Below, piece after piece: positions 11,667 to 53,705 of a stretch of DNA of 64,000 bases. A model generated the notes under the pieces. That model made no database searches, was not told the DNA's origin, and worked only from the letters and a program-made list of their open reading frames with translations. How positions within the stretch are numbered: the first letter of the stretch is position 1; each line of letters begins with the position of its first letter. The position numbers and the translations under genes were made by a program. Source of the DNA: Watersipora subatra (lineage: Eukaryota > Bryozoa > Gymnolaemata > Cheilostomatida > Watersiporidae); contig NC_088711.1 of assembly GCF_963576615.1 (NCBI RefSeq), positions 16,043,869-16,107,868 of the forward strand. Reading direction: 5' to 3'.

Positions 11667-13419
11667 CAGTCATGTGCAAAAGTATGGAGCCGCTCTAAAG
11701 TATTTACAATTTCAAACTTCAAGCTGTTGTTACTCAGCTTAGAATAAAGCTACAGCAAATATATTAGTATCATTTTAATGCTGAGAGTGTCCTCTATCTG
11801 ATTATTTTAATTATTAACTTGCTAAATTAATAATTAAGACGACAAGCTGTCTTCTAATGTTTAGTGTTTGGATTTATGCAATCTACTAAATAATTTTCAA
11901 ATGTGAAAAACTTTTTGAACAAGCTGGTGGCCCTGAAAAAGGCCATTGGTTGTATAAATATTTTCTATAAGAGAGTGGAGGTGATTTCTGAAATCTGGTA
12001 GTCTCAGTACTTGATTGGTCAGCTTTTGTTCTCTGTGATAAGACAACAGCGGTTGGGCATTGATGCAACCGACTTTTCAGGTTCTGATGGCTCAATTACG
12101 CTGTGCCAAGCTCTCACAAGGCCCTTCATCAGCTCGTTTTTAGACTTGTGTTAAGTCTTGTTTAGTATAGCTGTTATATGCTGCCACACAGTTTCCAAGG
12201 GATTCAAATCTGGGCTCTGAGCTCGCCATGGTACTGCGCCGACTTTCTCTTGTTGCATTTATTTTTTGACTTTCTTGGCAGAGGGCATTGTCATCTTGGA
12301 ACCACCAATCAGTAGAACCTTCACCAAACAACGCCGTAGAACTTGGTAACACCTTACTTTGCACGGTTTTGATATATTTGTCTCTGTTCATCATGCCAAG
12401 TACAAAGTCGACCCATCCAACCCCTGATGCCGCCATACAGCCCCAAACCATCACTAATGCAGCATGCTTTACCGTGGGAGTAATACACCATGGCTTGAAA
12501 GCCTCTCCTGGTTTTCTTCTAACATACTGCAAACCAAAGTGGTTAGTAACAGAAAAGGTAGATTCATCAGTGAAAATCGCTCCCTTCCGCTGGTCCACAC
12601 TCCATGAAGCCATGGTGTCTTGTGCTGGCATGCCCACTTTAATCGATTGTGTCATTGTTTCTCTGTCACCATTAGCTTCTTTCTTGCTTTACAGCTCTTC
12701 AACCTGGCAGCAATAAGGTGTCTTCTAACGGTAGATAGTTGCACTTCGATATTGCTTGTGTCCTGCCAGTCTCTGATTAGTTCACAGCTAGACTTATGGT
12801 CTGTCAAGGAAATCCGCGCCGGAGTTCTCTTTTCTCTACAAGTCCTATTTTTTGGGCGATAAGAGTGTGGTTTATCTTCAGTACTGCCAGTCTCGTAGAA
12901 TCTTTGAATGACACCAGACACTGTTCTTTGAACAACCAACTCTTTTGACAATTTCTCGCATAGACATTCCTTCTTGATGAAGTCAAATAATGGTTGCTCG
13001 CTGTTCTGCGGTAGTTTTCATAGTGTGGATGTTACTAATGAAAATATTGTACAACGAATGCACAAAATAGTAAAAATTCTTACTTTTATATCCTTATGTA
13101 CACAAAAATAGCAAAACTTCAAAGATTTTGAAACAATGGCTTCAAGAGATTGAATTATGATAATTACTTATACTCGCTTCCTATTATTATTAAATACTAA
13201 ACTTATTTGAGTGAGAGTGTCATGTCCTTTAGGAGATAACACAAGTGAAGTAAAGTGTCTAATTATGTTTTAAATAGCACCATCGTGTGAAGGAGACTGT
13301 GAGGATTAAAATGATACTTTGCTTTGTTATATTTGAAATTGTTCTCTTTATTCTATTTGAATTTGAACTTTGAGTTCACGCAAATTCAGAGGGCGGCTCC
13401 ATACTTTTGCACATGACTG
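11667..13419 (-). mobile_element. Tc1-type DNA transposon, full length but inactive
   Basis: The ends are CAGTCATGTGCAAAAGTATG and its reverse complement, about 30 bp long with one or two mismatches, flanked by TA on both sides (11665-11666 and 13420-13421). Length is 1753 bp, normal for Tc1. A decayed transposase lies inside on the minus strand. The intact ends could still be mobilised in trans by an active relative. The good match between the inverted repeats indicates moderate age. Confidence 0.95.
12130..13021 (-). pseudogene. Tc1 transposase pseudogene
   Basis: Translation from the ATG at 13021 gives a typical Tc1 start (MKTTAEQRA), then an early TGA stop after about 12 codons. Frame changes follow: the helix-turn-helix part is in one frame (VIQRFYETGSTEDKP, ending near 12652) and the catalytic part in another (12655-12140). 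The first two catalytic aspartates are visible in IFTDES and FQDDNA. The usual DLNPIENLW box with the third acidic residue has decayed to PRFESLGN. A further C-terminal piece (SYRKYLYNQWPFSG) lies downstream in another frame around 11950. With at least three disruptions the gene cannot make transposase. Confidence 0.9.
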
Positions 13420-28142: not shown

Positions 28143-28298
28143 TAGTAACTAAAGCTAAGCTTAGATTGAGGATTTTTATAGTTTACAACGTCGGGCAATT
28201 ACAAGTGTAGGTGTAAAGAGGGGTTTGAGACAGATAGACAATTTAAATGTAGAAGTAAGATTCCTCGCTTCCTATTTGTACTAACCTCAGATGGTCAA

Positions 28299-29639
28299 TG
28301 CCACTGCGGACAATGTCACTGGACAATGCCACTGTGGACAATGCCACTGTGGACAATGACACTGTTTACAATGCCACTGTGGATAATGACACTGGACAAT
28401 GACACTGTGGACAATGCCACTGTGTACAAAGCCGCTGTGGACAATGCCACTGTGGACAATGACACTGTGGACAATGACACTGTGGAAAATGCCACTGTGG
28501 ACTATACCGCCATGGACAATGACACTGTGGACAATGCCACTGTGGACAATGACACTGTGGACAATGACACTGTGGACAATGCTACTGTAGACAATGCCGC
28601 GGTGGACAATGACCCTGGGCAATGCCACTGTGGACAATGCCACTGTGGACAATGACACTGTGGACAATGCCACTGTGGATAATGCCACTGTGGATAATGC
28701 CACTGTGGACAATGACACTGTGGACAATGACACTGTGGACAATGACACTGTGGACAATGCCACTGTGGATAATGCCACTGTGGATAATGCCACTGTGGAC
28801 AATGACACTGTGGACAATGACACTGTGGACAATGGCTCTGTGGACAATGACACTGTTTACAATGCCACTGTGGATAATGACACTGGACAATGACACTGTG
28901 GACAATGCCACTGTGTACAAAGCCGCTGTGGACAATGCCACTGTGGACAATGACACTGTGGACAATGACACTGTGGACAATGCCACTGTGGACTATACCG
29001 CCATGGACAATGACACTGTGGACAATGCCACTGTGGACAATGACACTGTGGACAATGACACTGTGGACAATGCTACTGTAGACAATGCCGCGGTGGACAA
29101 TGACCCTGGACAATGCCACTGTGGACAATGCCACTGTGGACAATGACACTGTGGACAATGCCACTGTGGATAATGCCACTGTGGATAATGCCACTGTGGA
29201 CAATGACACTGTGGACAATGACACTGTGGACAATGACACTGTGGACAATGCCACTGTGGATAATGCCACTGTGGATAATGCCACTGTGGACAATGACACT
29301 GTGGACAATGACACTGTGGACAATGGCTCTGTGGACAATGACACTGTTTACAATGCCACTGTGGATAATGACACTGGACAATGACACTGTGGACAATGCC
29401 ACTGTGTACAAAGCCGCTGTGGACAATGCCACTGTGGACAATGACACTGTGGACAATGACACTGTGGACAATGCCACTGTGGACTATACCGCCATGGACA
29501 ATGACACTGTGGACAATGCCACTGTGGACAATGACACTGTGGACAATGACACTGTGGACAATGCTACTGTAGACAATGCCGCGGTGGACAATGACCCTGG
29601 ACAATGCCACTGTGGACAATGCCACTGTGGACAATGACA
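28299..29639. repeat. 15-bp minisatellite with 491-bp higher-order repeat
   Basis: About 90 copies of a 15-bp unit (GACAATGACACTGTG or GACAATGCCACTGTG) fill 1.34 kb. Variant units recur in fixed order: GCCGCTGTGGAC starts at 28431, 28922 and 29413, exactly 491 bases apart, so about 2.7 copies of a higher-order repeat are present. Copies are nearly identical (for example GGGCAATG against GGACAATG at one site), so amplification is recent. The CC-variant unit contains CCACTGTGG, a small palindrome. Long open frames on both strands (up to 280 codons) follow from the 15-bp period. Because 491 is not a multiple of three, no frame survives the whole array, so coding is unlikely. Confidence 0.95.
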
Positions 29640-30117
29640 CAAGACCATTTAAAAAACTAGCTAGTTTTTGCGTAAAATATTTTAACAAAACTGTTTTTTC
29701 TATTGGTTAGTTCTGTTCAGGGTTGCTGATATATTATCCATACTTCTAGGAAAGTGTTAACATCTGATCAAAAGTGTTTTGTGCCATTCAAAACAACTTA
29801 GTTATGCTCCATTAGTTCCTCGTACTTGATCTAGATTGTGTCTATTGAGTCCTATGATCACTAACAGGGTGTTGAGACTAGCATACCCAACAAGGAGGGC
29901 TGCAGGAAGTGTCTCAAGACTAACAGGGACATTGTGAGCTCTTAAACTAACAAACAACCTTTTGTATGAAGAATATTGATTCATTGTAGACAGGAATCTG
30001 AATATTTATAGTCAACAGCTTTTGCTTTTCTTTGATTTTTTTCAAGTCTATGATGGCATCATTGACTGGCTGATACAACTGTTTAAGTAGCTAGCGGTGC
30101 AGGAAACATAGTTATTC
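29640..30117. other. Spacer, nothing seen
   Basis: Unique AT-rich sequence between the minisatellite and the next inverted-repeat element. No coding signal. Confidence 0.5.
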
Positions 30118-50300: not shown

Positions 50301-53300
50301 CGGTGACCACGAGAATAAATATTGTAAGATCGAAATTTTTATAATAAATTTTTGGTATGATAAATGCATAATTTTTAAAAATAAAATTATCCATGGATAA
50401 GATGCACCTGGATTTTTAAGTCAACTTCTTAAGAAAAAAAGTGCGTCTTATACGTGGGTATTTACGGTATATAGATTATTTGATAGTATCATTGCGGTAA
50501 CCTGATCTTACAATGGATCCATGCTTGTAACTCCTCGTCTATTGCACATAAAATGCTAACTTTGATTGCAAATTGTAGCAAACATCAATGAGTGCAATGA
50601 GCCTTTATGCGACATCATTACATAAAGATATAAAATTAAAATGTCTTCCAATTTATAATGAAATAAAAATTAAAAGCTCCAACAAATTGCATAGCAGGAA
50701 GCAAGCTATAATATCATCCCAAGTTAATTGCATGCAATAGATATCAACTGATAGAGCTATTTCTCGGATTCTCAATGCAAATTTATTAAAAGCACTTTGA
50801 TAAGTTGGAGATAAGTTAGCAGATTTATTGCAACCAAAACAATCAATGTCGCTCCACCGGAAGAAGAGGGCAAAATATAGGTGGCGTTCGCCTTGCTCGT
50901 AAAAGTGTTAAATTTATCTTCCCAAAATTATCATACATAATATATATATAATATACTCATATAGTTTATACAGCTCCATTTCATGTTGAGCACTGTGGTT
51001 TTAGCTCTACCTATAATAAATCGCAATATACATACATATATATGTATATATATACATGTATATATGTGTATATATATACATATATATGTATATACATATA
51101 TATGTACATATATATGTACATATATATATGTATATATATATACATGTATATATGTGCATATATATACATATATATATATACACGTATATAGTCATTGGGG
51201 CACTGGGCACAATAATACCTGTGCATAAATGTGGCTTGCCCAGATACAGACAGCAATCAACTCAAGTGAGTTGCAGAAAATTGCACTATTAGGCGCAGCT
51301 AAGATCTTGAGGCGAGTGCCCAAACTCCCAGGTCTCTGGTAGGAGACTCGAGTTAGAGCAGAAATTACCACCCATATGGGTTAACCGGAGTGAGGAAATA
51401 ATTTATATATAAGTATATATATAAATATATATATACTTATATATAAATAACTATATAATAATTATATATATTAATATAAATAATTATATATACATGTATA
51501 TATAACTATATACATATATATAGTTATATATATATATATACGTGTAATAGTTATGCAAAACAGTTGCACTTAACTTTCAGCTACTGGCAGTTTCATGGCT
51601 TTTTCTGTCAATCTTCAGGCTGCAGCAAGCTTCAGGAGCAGCCTGAAGATTGATCAAAGAAGTCATGAAACTGTCAGTAGCTGAAAGTTAAGTGCAAATG
51701 TTTTACATAACTATCACCATTTGCTCCAATTTCTTGTAGAGCTCTTTTATTTTAGTATTACTTTACTGTATCATTTTATAATATAGTAAATTTCCATGTA
51801 TATATATACATGTATATACTACATATTATCGCTAGAGACACTAGTTTCGTAAATAATGATAAAGAAAAAGCTCTCAATACAGTAAGTGTTGAGTGAATTA
51901 AACTATAATATAAAATTAGTAAATCACTAAAGTTGGTTTTAAGTTCATATAGGTAAGTAGGATAGGTCATGTGAAATTAGAACAACTACTACAGCTCAAT
52001 ATGGCGCCTTACAGTGCCTCGCGTTGCGTGTTCACAACTCGAGTTGCACAACTCGAGTTGTGCAACTCGAGTTGTACAACTCGAGTTGCACAACTCGAGT
52101 TGTACAACTCGAGTTCATCAAAACCCAAGCCGAGTTCTTTCAACAGCAACTCGAGTTCAACAACTCGGCTTGAGAAGATGGAACGCGAAGTACTTTTTTG
52201 GTGCATCATTAAACGCCGTTACAATAACTTCTATGTTCATTTTCGGTGTTCATTCAGTTAATTGTCAGGTTCTAGAGAGATCACTCTTTTTTCATTTGAA
52301 AAAGAACTGGCCCGGCTCCTACATAGATTGTTTTTTAGTTTGTTTTTTACATTCTACAATTGTTTTTGTCTCTTTATATCTATAGAAATAAAAATGCGCA
52401 AATCTCGCCAATATATATAATTTAAATATGTATATATATTTAAATTATTATTAATAAATTTCTGTAAATGTTCTGTGAATGAGACACCCCAAATACTCAC
52501 TTTGCTTTTTTTACAAACCCGTGTTAGTTTTGCGTAACTATGGCGCCTTACAGTGCCTCGCGTTGCGTGTTCACAACTCGAGTTGCCGAGTTGTACAACT
52601 CAGCCTAAGTTTTTGATGAACTCGAGTTGTGTTTCGCAAAACTAGCACGGGTTTGTAAAAAAGCCAAGTGAGTAATTGGGGTGTCTCATTTACAGAACAT
52701 TAACAGAAAGTTAATAATAATAACTTAAATATATATACACATTTAAATTATACATATTGGCGATATTTGCGCATATATATTTCTATAAATATAACGAAAC
52801 AAAACAATTGTAGAATGTAAAAGGCAAACTAAAAAACAATCTATGTGGGAGCCGGGCCACTTCTTTTTCAAATGAAAAAAGAGTTATCTCTCTAAAACCT
52901 GACAAGAAGCTGAATGAACACCGAAAATAAACAAACATAGAAATTATGTCAACGATGTTTAATGATGCACCAAAAAAATTCCATATAAAAATATAGCTAG
53001 AGAAAATGAAATGATGAGATGTTCTCAAGCCGAGTTGTTGAACTCGAGTTGTTGTTGAAAGAACTCGGCTTGGATTTTTGATGAACTCGAGTTGTGTAAC
53101 TCGAGTTGTACAACTCGAGTTATATTTACGAACTCGAGTTGGTAAATATAACTCGAGTTGTACAACTCGAGTTGCAAACTCGGCACACTATAATTCGCCA
53201 TTTATTTCTAGTTTTACAGTACATACATACATAGTTTAATTTCTCTTAGCTAACAGGTGCCTATTGATGTACCATTGTTAATATAACTAGATCTACGGTT

Positions 53301-53705
53301 ATGCTACTGCAATACCAATATATTGCAACTTACTTTTACAAGTCGCGTTGCGTGTTCACAACTCGAGTTGTGCAACTCAAGTTGCAAACACGCAACGTGA
53401 GGCACTGTAAGGCGCCATAGCTCAAAGTATTCATGCTTGTTTTAGTGAGATTGTCAGTTGCTAGAGCTGCAAATGCCAGCCTTTTTATCCTAAACTTACA
53501 GCATGTCATGACTGCTTCTGGTGAAGAAAAAACTAACAACTGACAATGTGTAAAAAGCTGAAATTAAATACATCTGTTGCTTCATACTCCAGTGTGTGCT
53601 AAAAATTGAGCATGTAAAATAATCAATTTTTTTGTCGTTGATACCTTGCTTGCCGCGAGAAGAATCATGCCCGGAACCTTGCCTTTTCCGGCGATCTTTT
53701 GGCAT
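47371..53705 (-). CDS. CCDC59: CCDC59/TAP26-like rRNA-processing protein
   Basis: Minus-strand exons 53645-53705, 47930-48029, 47685-47793 and 47371-47580 join in phase to 159 aa. The last three are strongly supported: [19 protein letters not shown] matches the GFAFRRK..YKKLLRKEK block of human CCDC59, and [20 protein letters not shown] matches its C-terminal KKTKKGQPNLNVQMEYLLQK signature. Between them is a highly charged Lys/Glu/Arg/Ala helix, probably coiled coil. Family members act in the nucleolus in small-subunit rRNA processing (Fyv7-like) and, in mammals, bind TTF-1. The first exon (basic [20 protein letters not shown]) is inferred from phase, composition and a clean acceptor/donor pair. 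It implies a 5.6-kb intron full of transposons. An upstream non-coding exon may end at 54126 (GTTA|GTAAGT). The protein is shorter than the human one (about 240 aa). AATAAA for this strand is at 47230-47235. Confidence 0.75.
48841..49060. mobile_element. Possible end of a degraded DNA transposon
   Basis: AAAACCTCTAATTGAACGCC followed by two similar blocks (TCTATTCGACCGCC, CCATTTGACCGC) is the style of pogo/Tigger termini. I cannot find the opposite end. At 49390-49500 an open piece ([20 protein letters not shown]) might be transposase debris. Lies in the inferred CCDC59 first intron. Confidence 0.35.
49782..50467 (+). mobile_element. Pogo/Tigger element, deleted, with transposase remnant
   Basis: The ends CCGTAAATACCCGCGTATAG and (reverse complement of the right) CCGTAAATACCCACGTATAA are flanked by TA (49780-49781 and 50468-50469). 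At 50099-50229 a plus-strand remnant reads [23 protein letters not shown] and [14 protein letters not shown], the end of a pogo DDE domain including the third catalytic aspartate in QPMDV. The rest of the transposase is missing. At 49950-50040 there is a local cluster of inverted ATTCGTCGAATGAT copies. 686 bp long. Confidence 0.85.
50468..50963. other. Intron spacer, nothing seen
   Basis: AT-rich sequence inside the inferred CCDC59 first intron, with no repeat ends or frames of interest. Confidence 0.4.
50964..51014 (-). repeat. Dispersed repeat beside AT microsatellite, copy 2
   Basis: Reverse-complement partner of 6430-6490 (TTTATACAGCTCC, then GTTGAGCACTGTGGTTTTAG). It borders the microsatellite at 51016. 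Confidence 0.7.
51016..51545. repeat. TA/TATG microsatellites in two blocks
   Basis: Blocks at 51023-51190 and 51400-51545 are dominated by TATATG, TACATG and TA steps, and both strands are largely self-complementary. Open frames rich in Tyr, Ile and Met here come from the repeat. The 200 bp between the blocks look unique. Confidence 0.85.
51542..51718. mobile_element. 177-bp hairpin element
   Basis: Arms of about 80 bp: GTTGCACTTAACTTTCAGCT near the left end pairs with AGCTGAAAGTTAAGTGCAAA on the right, and CAATCTTCAGGCTGC pairs with GCAGCCTGAAGATTG around a short AGCTT-containing loop. Mismatches are few. It looks like a palindromic MITE. The transcript would form one long stem. Confidence 0.8.
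52001..53418. mobile_element. Large palindromic element built on CAACTCGAGTTG, 8-bp duplication
   Basis: The outer ends ATGGCGCCTTACAGTGCCTC and its reverse complement are flanked by AGCTCAAT and AGCTCAAA (7 of 8 identical). Just inside each end lie clusters of the perfect 12-bp palindrome CAACTCGAGTTG joined by TACA or GCA linkers. Two long arms (about 52110-52530 and 52633-53050) are inverted copies of each other; shared pieces include TTTGAAAAAGAA and AATGAGACACCCC. A third copy of the ATGGCGCC end lies in the centre at 52542, so the structure looks like two head-to-head copies. No transposase. Lies in the inferred CCDC59 first intron. Confidence 0.85.

Follow-up and report, generated by a model that had tools for sequence, protein, structure and literature searches.

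A palindrome-rich composite element in the bryozoan Watersipora subatra and the repeat family to which it belongs

The window analysed here is a stretch of 64,000 nucleotides from contig NC_088711.1 of the bryozoan Watersipora subatra (assembly GCF_963576615.1, positions 16,043,869 to 16,107,868), and near its position 52,000 lies an element of 1,420 bp that resembles a giant palindrome. Does this element belong to a family of mobile DNA, or did it arise by rearrangement at this one place? We consider it probable that it is one member, with a composite history, of a young family of non-coding, non-autonomous cut-and-paste transposons of the foldback or MITE type (MITE for miniature inverted-repeat transposable element).

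Genomic copies and their target sites

The initial annotation of this stretch, made from the letters of the window, had proposed to search the assembly for further copies and their flanks, and the search found both. In the 784-Mb assembly (239 contigs) a scan for the 22-bp terminus TATGGCGCCTTACAGTGCCTCG that allowed two mismatches gave 1,227 matches (601 + 626), a figure that counts termini, internal ones included, and not copies; the reversed pattern occurs 0 times. Exact direct repeats border 46 of 58 distinct paired copies, with a length of 6 bp in 29 and of 7 bp in 17, compared with about 0.8 such repeats (6-7 bp) per 58 when the right flanks are shuffled. As 6 and 7 bp correspond to different registers of the flanks, neither length is a chance extension of the other. 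The near-perfect 8-bp target duplication first read at the window element proved to be an exact repeat of 6 bp, GCTCAA, and duplications of 8 bp were found in 0 of the 58 copies. The duplicated letters vary between sites. Such duplications and ends typify cut-and-paste transposons.

The 58 pairs were drawn from the 20 loci most similar to the window's left end and from chromosome C1 only (first 100 listed termini), and the copies seen in detail are therefore biased towards one chromosome and close relatives of that end. Pairing was confined to ends with up to 6 substitutions and no indel (which excludes L018 and L020), lying within 6 kb of each other and in one locus (which excludes L003 with L022); where more than one pair was possible at a locus, that with the longest duplication was taken. 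L021 and L023 stand outside the 58, as do L094-L099, which came later; the catalogue of 54 copies used below omits L016, L040, L045 and L051. The later loci are six further left ends on C1 without a listed partner (6 of 20 places), which gave four closed copies, namely L094 and L096 with 7-bp duplications and the composites L097 and L099, and two, L095 and L098, with no right end in 1.5 kb. A case apart is the pair L013 and L016 (C5, 270 kb apart), in which no target duplication is shared within a copy and the flanks of the two copies are mutually reverse complement; this is an inverted segmental duplication or an ectopic exchange, and since the flanks are mutually reversed, probably one event was duplicated.

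Outside the duplication the target sites have a symmetrical preference that reads TGNANAS-N towards the cut. Among 92 half-sites, position -7 is G in 45 (p 6e-11), position -2 is C in 41 (p 1e-8), position -3 is A in 49 (p 9e-6) and position -8 is T in 43 (p 1e-3), the p values being uncorrected for 32 base-by-position tests. The motif is present in both the 6-bp and the 7-bp class.

The duplication lengths of 6-7 bp are those of Dada elements (PMC3706591), and the family might for this reason be taken for non-autonomous Dada copies. Dada, however, is described in that paper as lacking terminal inverted repeats and as sitting in small RNA genes, whereas the family has strong terminal repeats and duplications that differ from site to site; moreover, no Rfam match reached the threshold in the window or in L004, the two sources scanned. 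With terminal repeats and differing targets against it, and duplication length as the sole agreement, the Dada assignment is largely refuted and very unlikely.

Exact matches of a 19-nt end sequence numbered 0 in viral_contigs and 0 in genome_contigs, from which records of near relatives may be absent. The literature, including a query with the sequence letters that was judged by the titles of the leading matches, yielded no paper recognised as describing the family.

Composite structure and modules

The observation of a palindromic element in the window is real. The terminus is matched three times, at 52000 (+), 52539 (+) and 53419 (-), with a shuffled expectation of 0, the match at 52539 being the third, central copy already pointed out in the initial annotation. 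All 17 exact occurrences of AACTCGAGTT in the window fall within the element (0.08 expected), and the perfect 12-bp palindrome, the clusters of which had likewise been noticed, is present 8 times exactly and 18 times at up to one mismatch (0.09 expected). The element had been placed at 52001..53418; its exact span is 52000-53419. Two inverted arms of about 420 bp had also been described. The arms are inverted, with self reverse-complement pairing of 52027-53182 at 79% overall and 84-95% in ungapped stretches, but there is no single 420-bp terminal repeat: the arms are two opposed copies of an internal 'body' module together with palindrome arrays, and a 'tail' module stands on one side only. 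The parts, in window coordinates with the strand where one applies, are the following.

51994-51999: target-site duplication GCTCAA, left copy
52000-53419: whole composite element, TATGGCGCC...GGCGCCATA, 1,420 bp
52000-52538 (+): unit A, with left end, palindrome array and body; right end missing past GTAAC (compare L002, L092)
52000-52045 (+): putative left functional end, a terminus of about 35 nt and the first palindrome at nt 37
52036-52115: array of 6 AACTCGAGTT palindromes, 14-bp period
52194-52534 (-): 'body' module, copy of unit A
52539-53419 (+): unit B, a complete standard unit of end, palindromes, body, array, tail and end
52539-52585 (+): internal (third) terminus, which is the left end of unit B
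52633-53025 (+): unit B's copy of the 'body' module, opposite in orientation to 52194-52534
53041-53173: palindromes separating body from tail (P1 + P6)
53187-53340 (+): 'tail' module, on one side of the element only
53360-53383: two right-end palindromes (one with 1 mismatch) in a hairpin predicted to have an outer stem of 14 bp
53398-53419 (-): right terminal inverted repeat
53420-53425: target-site duplication GCTCAA, right copy

The window element is thus a right-truncated unit A fused to a complete unit B with an inverted body. Unit B is 91.2% identical to L088 over its full length, and unit A is the left part of a body-type unit, 92.6% identical to L092 over 475 bp. Unit A breaks off at ...GCGTAAC and abuts the terminus of unit B directly. 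The opposite orientation of the bodies of A and B gives the whole its appearance of a giant palindrome, and from the outer GCTCAA repeat it follows that the present insertion is bounded by the left end of A and the right end of B. The head-to-head dimer suggested at first survives as a composite with inverted bodies, and its two partners are unequal.

The A/B junction (52480-52600) was found nowhere else: a first look gave 1,179 candidates, and of the 40 that were scored none but the window itself matches across the junction. Together with the variable length of the palindrome arrays (1 to 24 units), this would be expected from a local rearrangement or a satellite-like expansion that is unique to the window locus and involves no transposon. 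Such an origin is refuted for the family as a whole by the termini found genome-wide, by the recurrent exact 6- and 7-bp duplications and by the end-to-end match of unit B with L088; it holds only for the A/B junction, and as an account of the element it is hardly credible.

Internal termini are found in 5 of the 54 catalogued copies, the window copy included. A different junction, consisting of body, terminus remnant and array, has identical text in L086, L091, L097 and L099 and a worn form in L060. The composites L097 and L099 have no exact duplication, and the exact 6-bp duplications of L060, L086 and L091 differ (GGCCTG, GATTGT and GCTGGA, respectively). One junction recurring with three different exact duplications shows that composites can be mobilised whole. 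L081 has a further, distinct internal terminus. In unit A itself, letters like a worn internal terminus are kept at about 52180-52197 (read by eye against the other composite junctions), which suggests that the standard units, too, may have arisen by the same nesting.

The 54 copies are assembled from a set of bricks, namely the terminus, the palindrome array, the tail (about 155 bp) and the body (about 390 bp), and measure between 101 bp and 3.9 kb; some also carry foreign inserts. A weak terminus-like match within the tail (6-8 mismatches) was not counted as a terminus. The smallest copies, of 101 and 110 bp, are terminus, palindromes and terminus alone; the first has no duplication, and the second (L070) has one of 7 bp, so that this much can move. 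Other copies have the tail only, the body only, both (about 780-1,070 bp), or both, the body then holding a foreign insert of about 390 bp (about 1,250-1,450 bp). The double-tail form measures 611 bp without and 3,863-3,903 bp with a 3.3-kb foreign insert, and two copies of about 2.1 kb carry other inserts.

The 390-bp insert, m400, is itself MITE-like, with the ends GCGAATTTCTTTTTCCCAAAC, and is present in the body of L005 and L017 (about 2120-2530), of L006 and of other copies; it marks a young subfamily of about 1.3 kb. The 3.3-kb insert, n33, with the ends TAGTCTGGTGGCCACAGGG, sits in the tail of L054-L057 and L022 and has spread together with the family. Measured against the module consensus, mean divergence is 0.8% for n33 (n=4, a rough figure), 1.7% for m400 (n=18), 3.2% for the tail (n=47) and 4.8% for the body (n=20); by this measure the insert-bearing subfamilies look youngest.

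In L004 (1500-2398; also L100) the family ends enclose 733 bp that match, at 98.4% identity, a stretch without termini about 0.8 kb away, and the element has a 7-bp duplication. Hence the family ends also carry captured DNA. Related copies cluster at C8:4.4-6.2 Mb, and a pattern designed for ends with divergence beyond the first 30 nt or so matched L004 only. From the minimal unit of 110 bp, which has a duplication of its own, to insert-carrying copies of 3.9 kb, the copies form a clear series that exhibits foldback elements built brick by brick, and also shows what a minimal end is.

The window holds other features. To the left of the element, at 51544-51717, there is a separate hairpin with two 80-bp arms that are 89% complementary and a 14-bp loop, probably another MITE. 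A 15-bp minisatellite with 91 copies occupies 28292-29640, has a 491-bp higher-order repeat at 98% and gives rise to long spurious frames. A broken transposase of the Tc1/mariner type lies at 12140-13017; its match to PF01498 in 12652-13017 (E 6.6e-7) falls slightly short of the curated cut-off, and Pfam gave nothing for the neighbouring frame 12140-12688. A SAM/Pointed domain, which points to an animal genome, is also encoded.

Palindromes, ends and the source of the transposase

If one mismatch is allowed, nt 37 is the start of a palindrome in 52 of 54 left ends and in 49 of 54 right ends, and successive exact palindromes are spaced by 14 bp in 295 of 533 intervals. The conservation of the outer 22 nt is biased, for these served to find the copies; at nt 23-47, which are free of that bias, the commonest base is present in 0.89-0.99 of the ends at most positions and in 0.52-0.84 at three. 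By analogy with Galileo, the repetitive ends of which hold THAP sites, the palindromes would be binding sites of a transposase, and a palindrome would offer an identical site in either orientation and so help any two ends to pair.

Alternatively, the palindromes could work as hairpins or cruciforms in replication or excision. The 110-bp copy is predicted to fold end to end (-69.7 kcal/mol, z -21), and strong folds are also predicted for the right end (z -4.8) and the left array (z -12) of the window element, so that hairpin formation is physically possible. The small size of the palindromes, their fixed offset and the mostly 14-bp period nevertheless suggest binding sites; within the first 60 nt, 14 of 54 copies contain a single palindrome, and the right end of L004 has none, yet the copy has its 7-bp duplication. 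A hairpin function in place of protein binding thus appears doubtful.

On the reading favoured here, a functional end would comprise the terminal repeat of about 35 nt followed by the perfect palindrome at nt 37, usually within an array of 14-bp period. A transposase made elsewhere would probably bind the palindromes, pair two ends, excise the DNA and insert it, with a stagger of 6 or 7 bp, into sites like TGNANAS-N-[6/7 bp], read inward from both sides. Whatever DNA is bounded by two good ends could then travel, and members would therefore nest, lose ends and be mobilised again as composites. At the window locus unit B (52539-53419) would have come to sit inside a body-type unit A, the right end of which may then have been lost, either by recombination of two similar right ends or by mobilisation with the left end of A and the right end of B. 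The outcome would be the present single element of 1,420 bp with these two ends and GCTCAA flanks.

That the transposase acts in trans we infer from the copies examined: no transposase was recognised in the frames of the window, L021-L023, L054-L057 and L094-L099. None of the frames that overlap the window element is longer than 134 amino acids (aa), and they run across the palindrome arrays. In L021-L023 there are two frames of at least 150 aa, one of 177 aa outside the copy and one of 165 aa of low complexity in L023, a copy of which the left end was not found. L095 has a frame of 235 aa inside or beside the family copy, which we take to be a piece of Copia; the longest frame in L098 has 103 aa. 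Considered as autonomous elements and rejected were a 5.1-kb copy that joins L022 and L003 (duplication AATATC, read by eye and outside the 58) and the 3.9-kb copies L054-L057, all of which carry the n33 insert in the tail and no recognised transposase.

Several observations weigh against a mobile family of this description. Neither an autonomous copy nor a transposase was found in a small search, which covered the frames of the listed copies and seven fragments compared with Pfam. The longest frame in the four 3.9-kb copies has 135 aa (frames of at least 80 aa listed), and Pfam gave no credible match on the seven long-copy fragments, the best two (E 0.016-0.017) lying far under the cut-offs. 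The second end was not reached in L009, L010, L035, L095 and L098, being absent within about 8-9 kb in L010 and L009. Duplications are lacking in 11 of the 58 copies and 5 bp long in 1. The order of events at the window locus rests on one haplotype and cannot be read exactly, and the fixed position of the palindromes equally fits hairpin-based models.

A bolder proposal is that the transposase represents a superfamily not yet described, or else a deviant branch of the P/hAT/Dada group, which would recognise the palindrome at nt 37, cut with a flexible stagger of 6 or 7 bp, prefer a palindromic target motif of about 22 bp and readily turn nested copies into composites; we give it little credence at present. 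Two duplication lengths with a fixed outer motif in one family will make the flexibility of the target cut testable once the transposase is found.

Comparison with known systems

MITEs are short and non-coding, with terminal inverted repeats and high copy number. By structure the present family is a foldback-type MITE family, most like Tetris and Galileo. Conserved terminal inverted repeats stand at many loci, and the target duplication has two lengths rather than one. Long inverted repeats holding tandem repeats, the mark of foldback elements, are found in the window copy; not all members are long-armed.

Among hAT transposons lineages with shorter duplications exist, and MuDR/MULE elements duplicate 8-10 bp. 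The canonical hAT duplication of about 8 bp (PMC3706591) is absent from the 58 copies, which is not a full exclusion. Duplications of 8-10 bp number 0 of 58, and the 6-7 bp of the family fall inside the 4-10 bp of the wider IS256/MuDR group (PMC10045372).

Galileo of Drosophila, a foldback element of the P superfamily, has long, internally repetitive ends with several subterminal binding sites for a THAP domain, nested elements, a palindromic target motif and duplications of 7 or 8 bp (PMC3688188, PMC4168063), and in its repetitive ends with several putative subterminal binding sites, its inserted elements and its palindromic target motif the family is like it. Galileo's target consensus is of the GTANTAC type; here the duplications are of 6 or 7 bp, mostly 6, and none of 8, and the 17 sites of 7 bp show no such (GTATTAC-like) consensus. 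A Galileo-like member of the P superfamily is therefore unlikely.

Tetris, a foldback element of Drosophila virilis (PMC4079207), is likewise modular and non-autonomous; its inverted repeats contain tandem repeats, and it has many rearranged forms. Its repeats are of about 220 bp, as opposed to perfect palindromes of 14-bp period here, and the likeness is one of structure. KolobokP elements (PMC9587614) are DNA transposons with composite-like, multimeric insertions flanked by target duplications; they have long terminal direct repeats and duplications of 3-5 bp, in contrast to the terminal inverted repeats and the 6 or 7 bp found here. Dada, as set out above, is alike in duplication length and differs in its ends and in its targeting of small RNA genes (PMC3706591). 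Apart from its size series and its two duplication lengths, this is a repeat family of recognisable type, interesting rather than revolutionary; compared with MITEs in general, its palindrome arrays and repeated composites are unusual.

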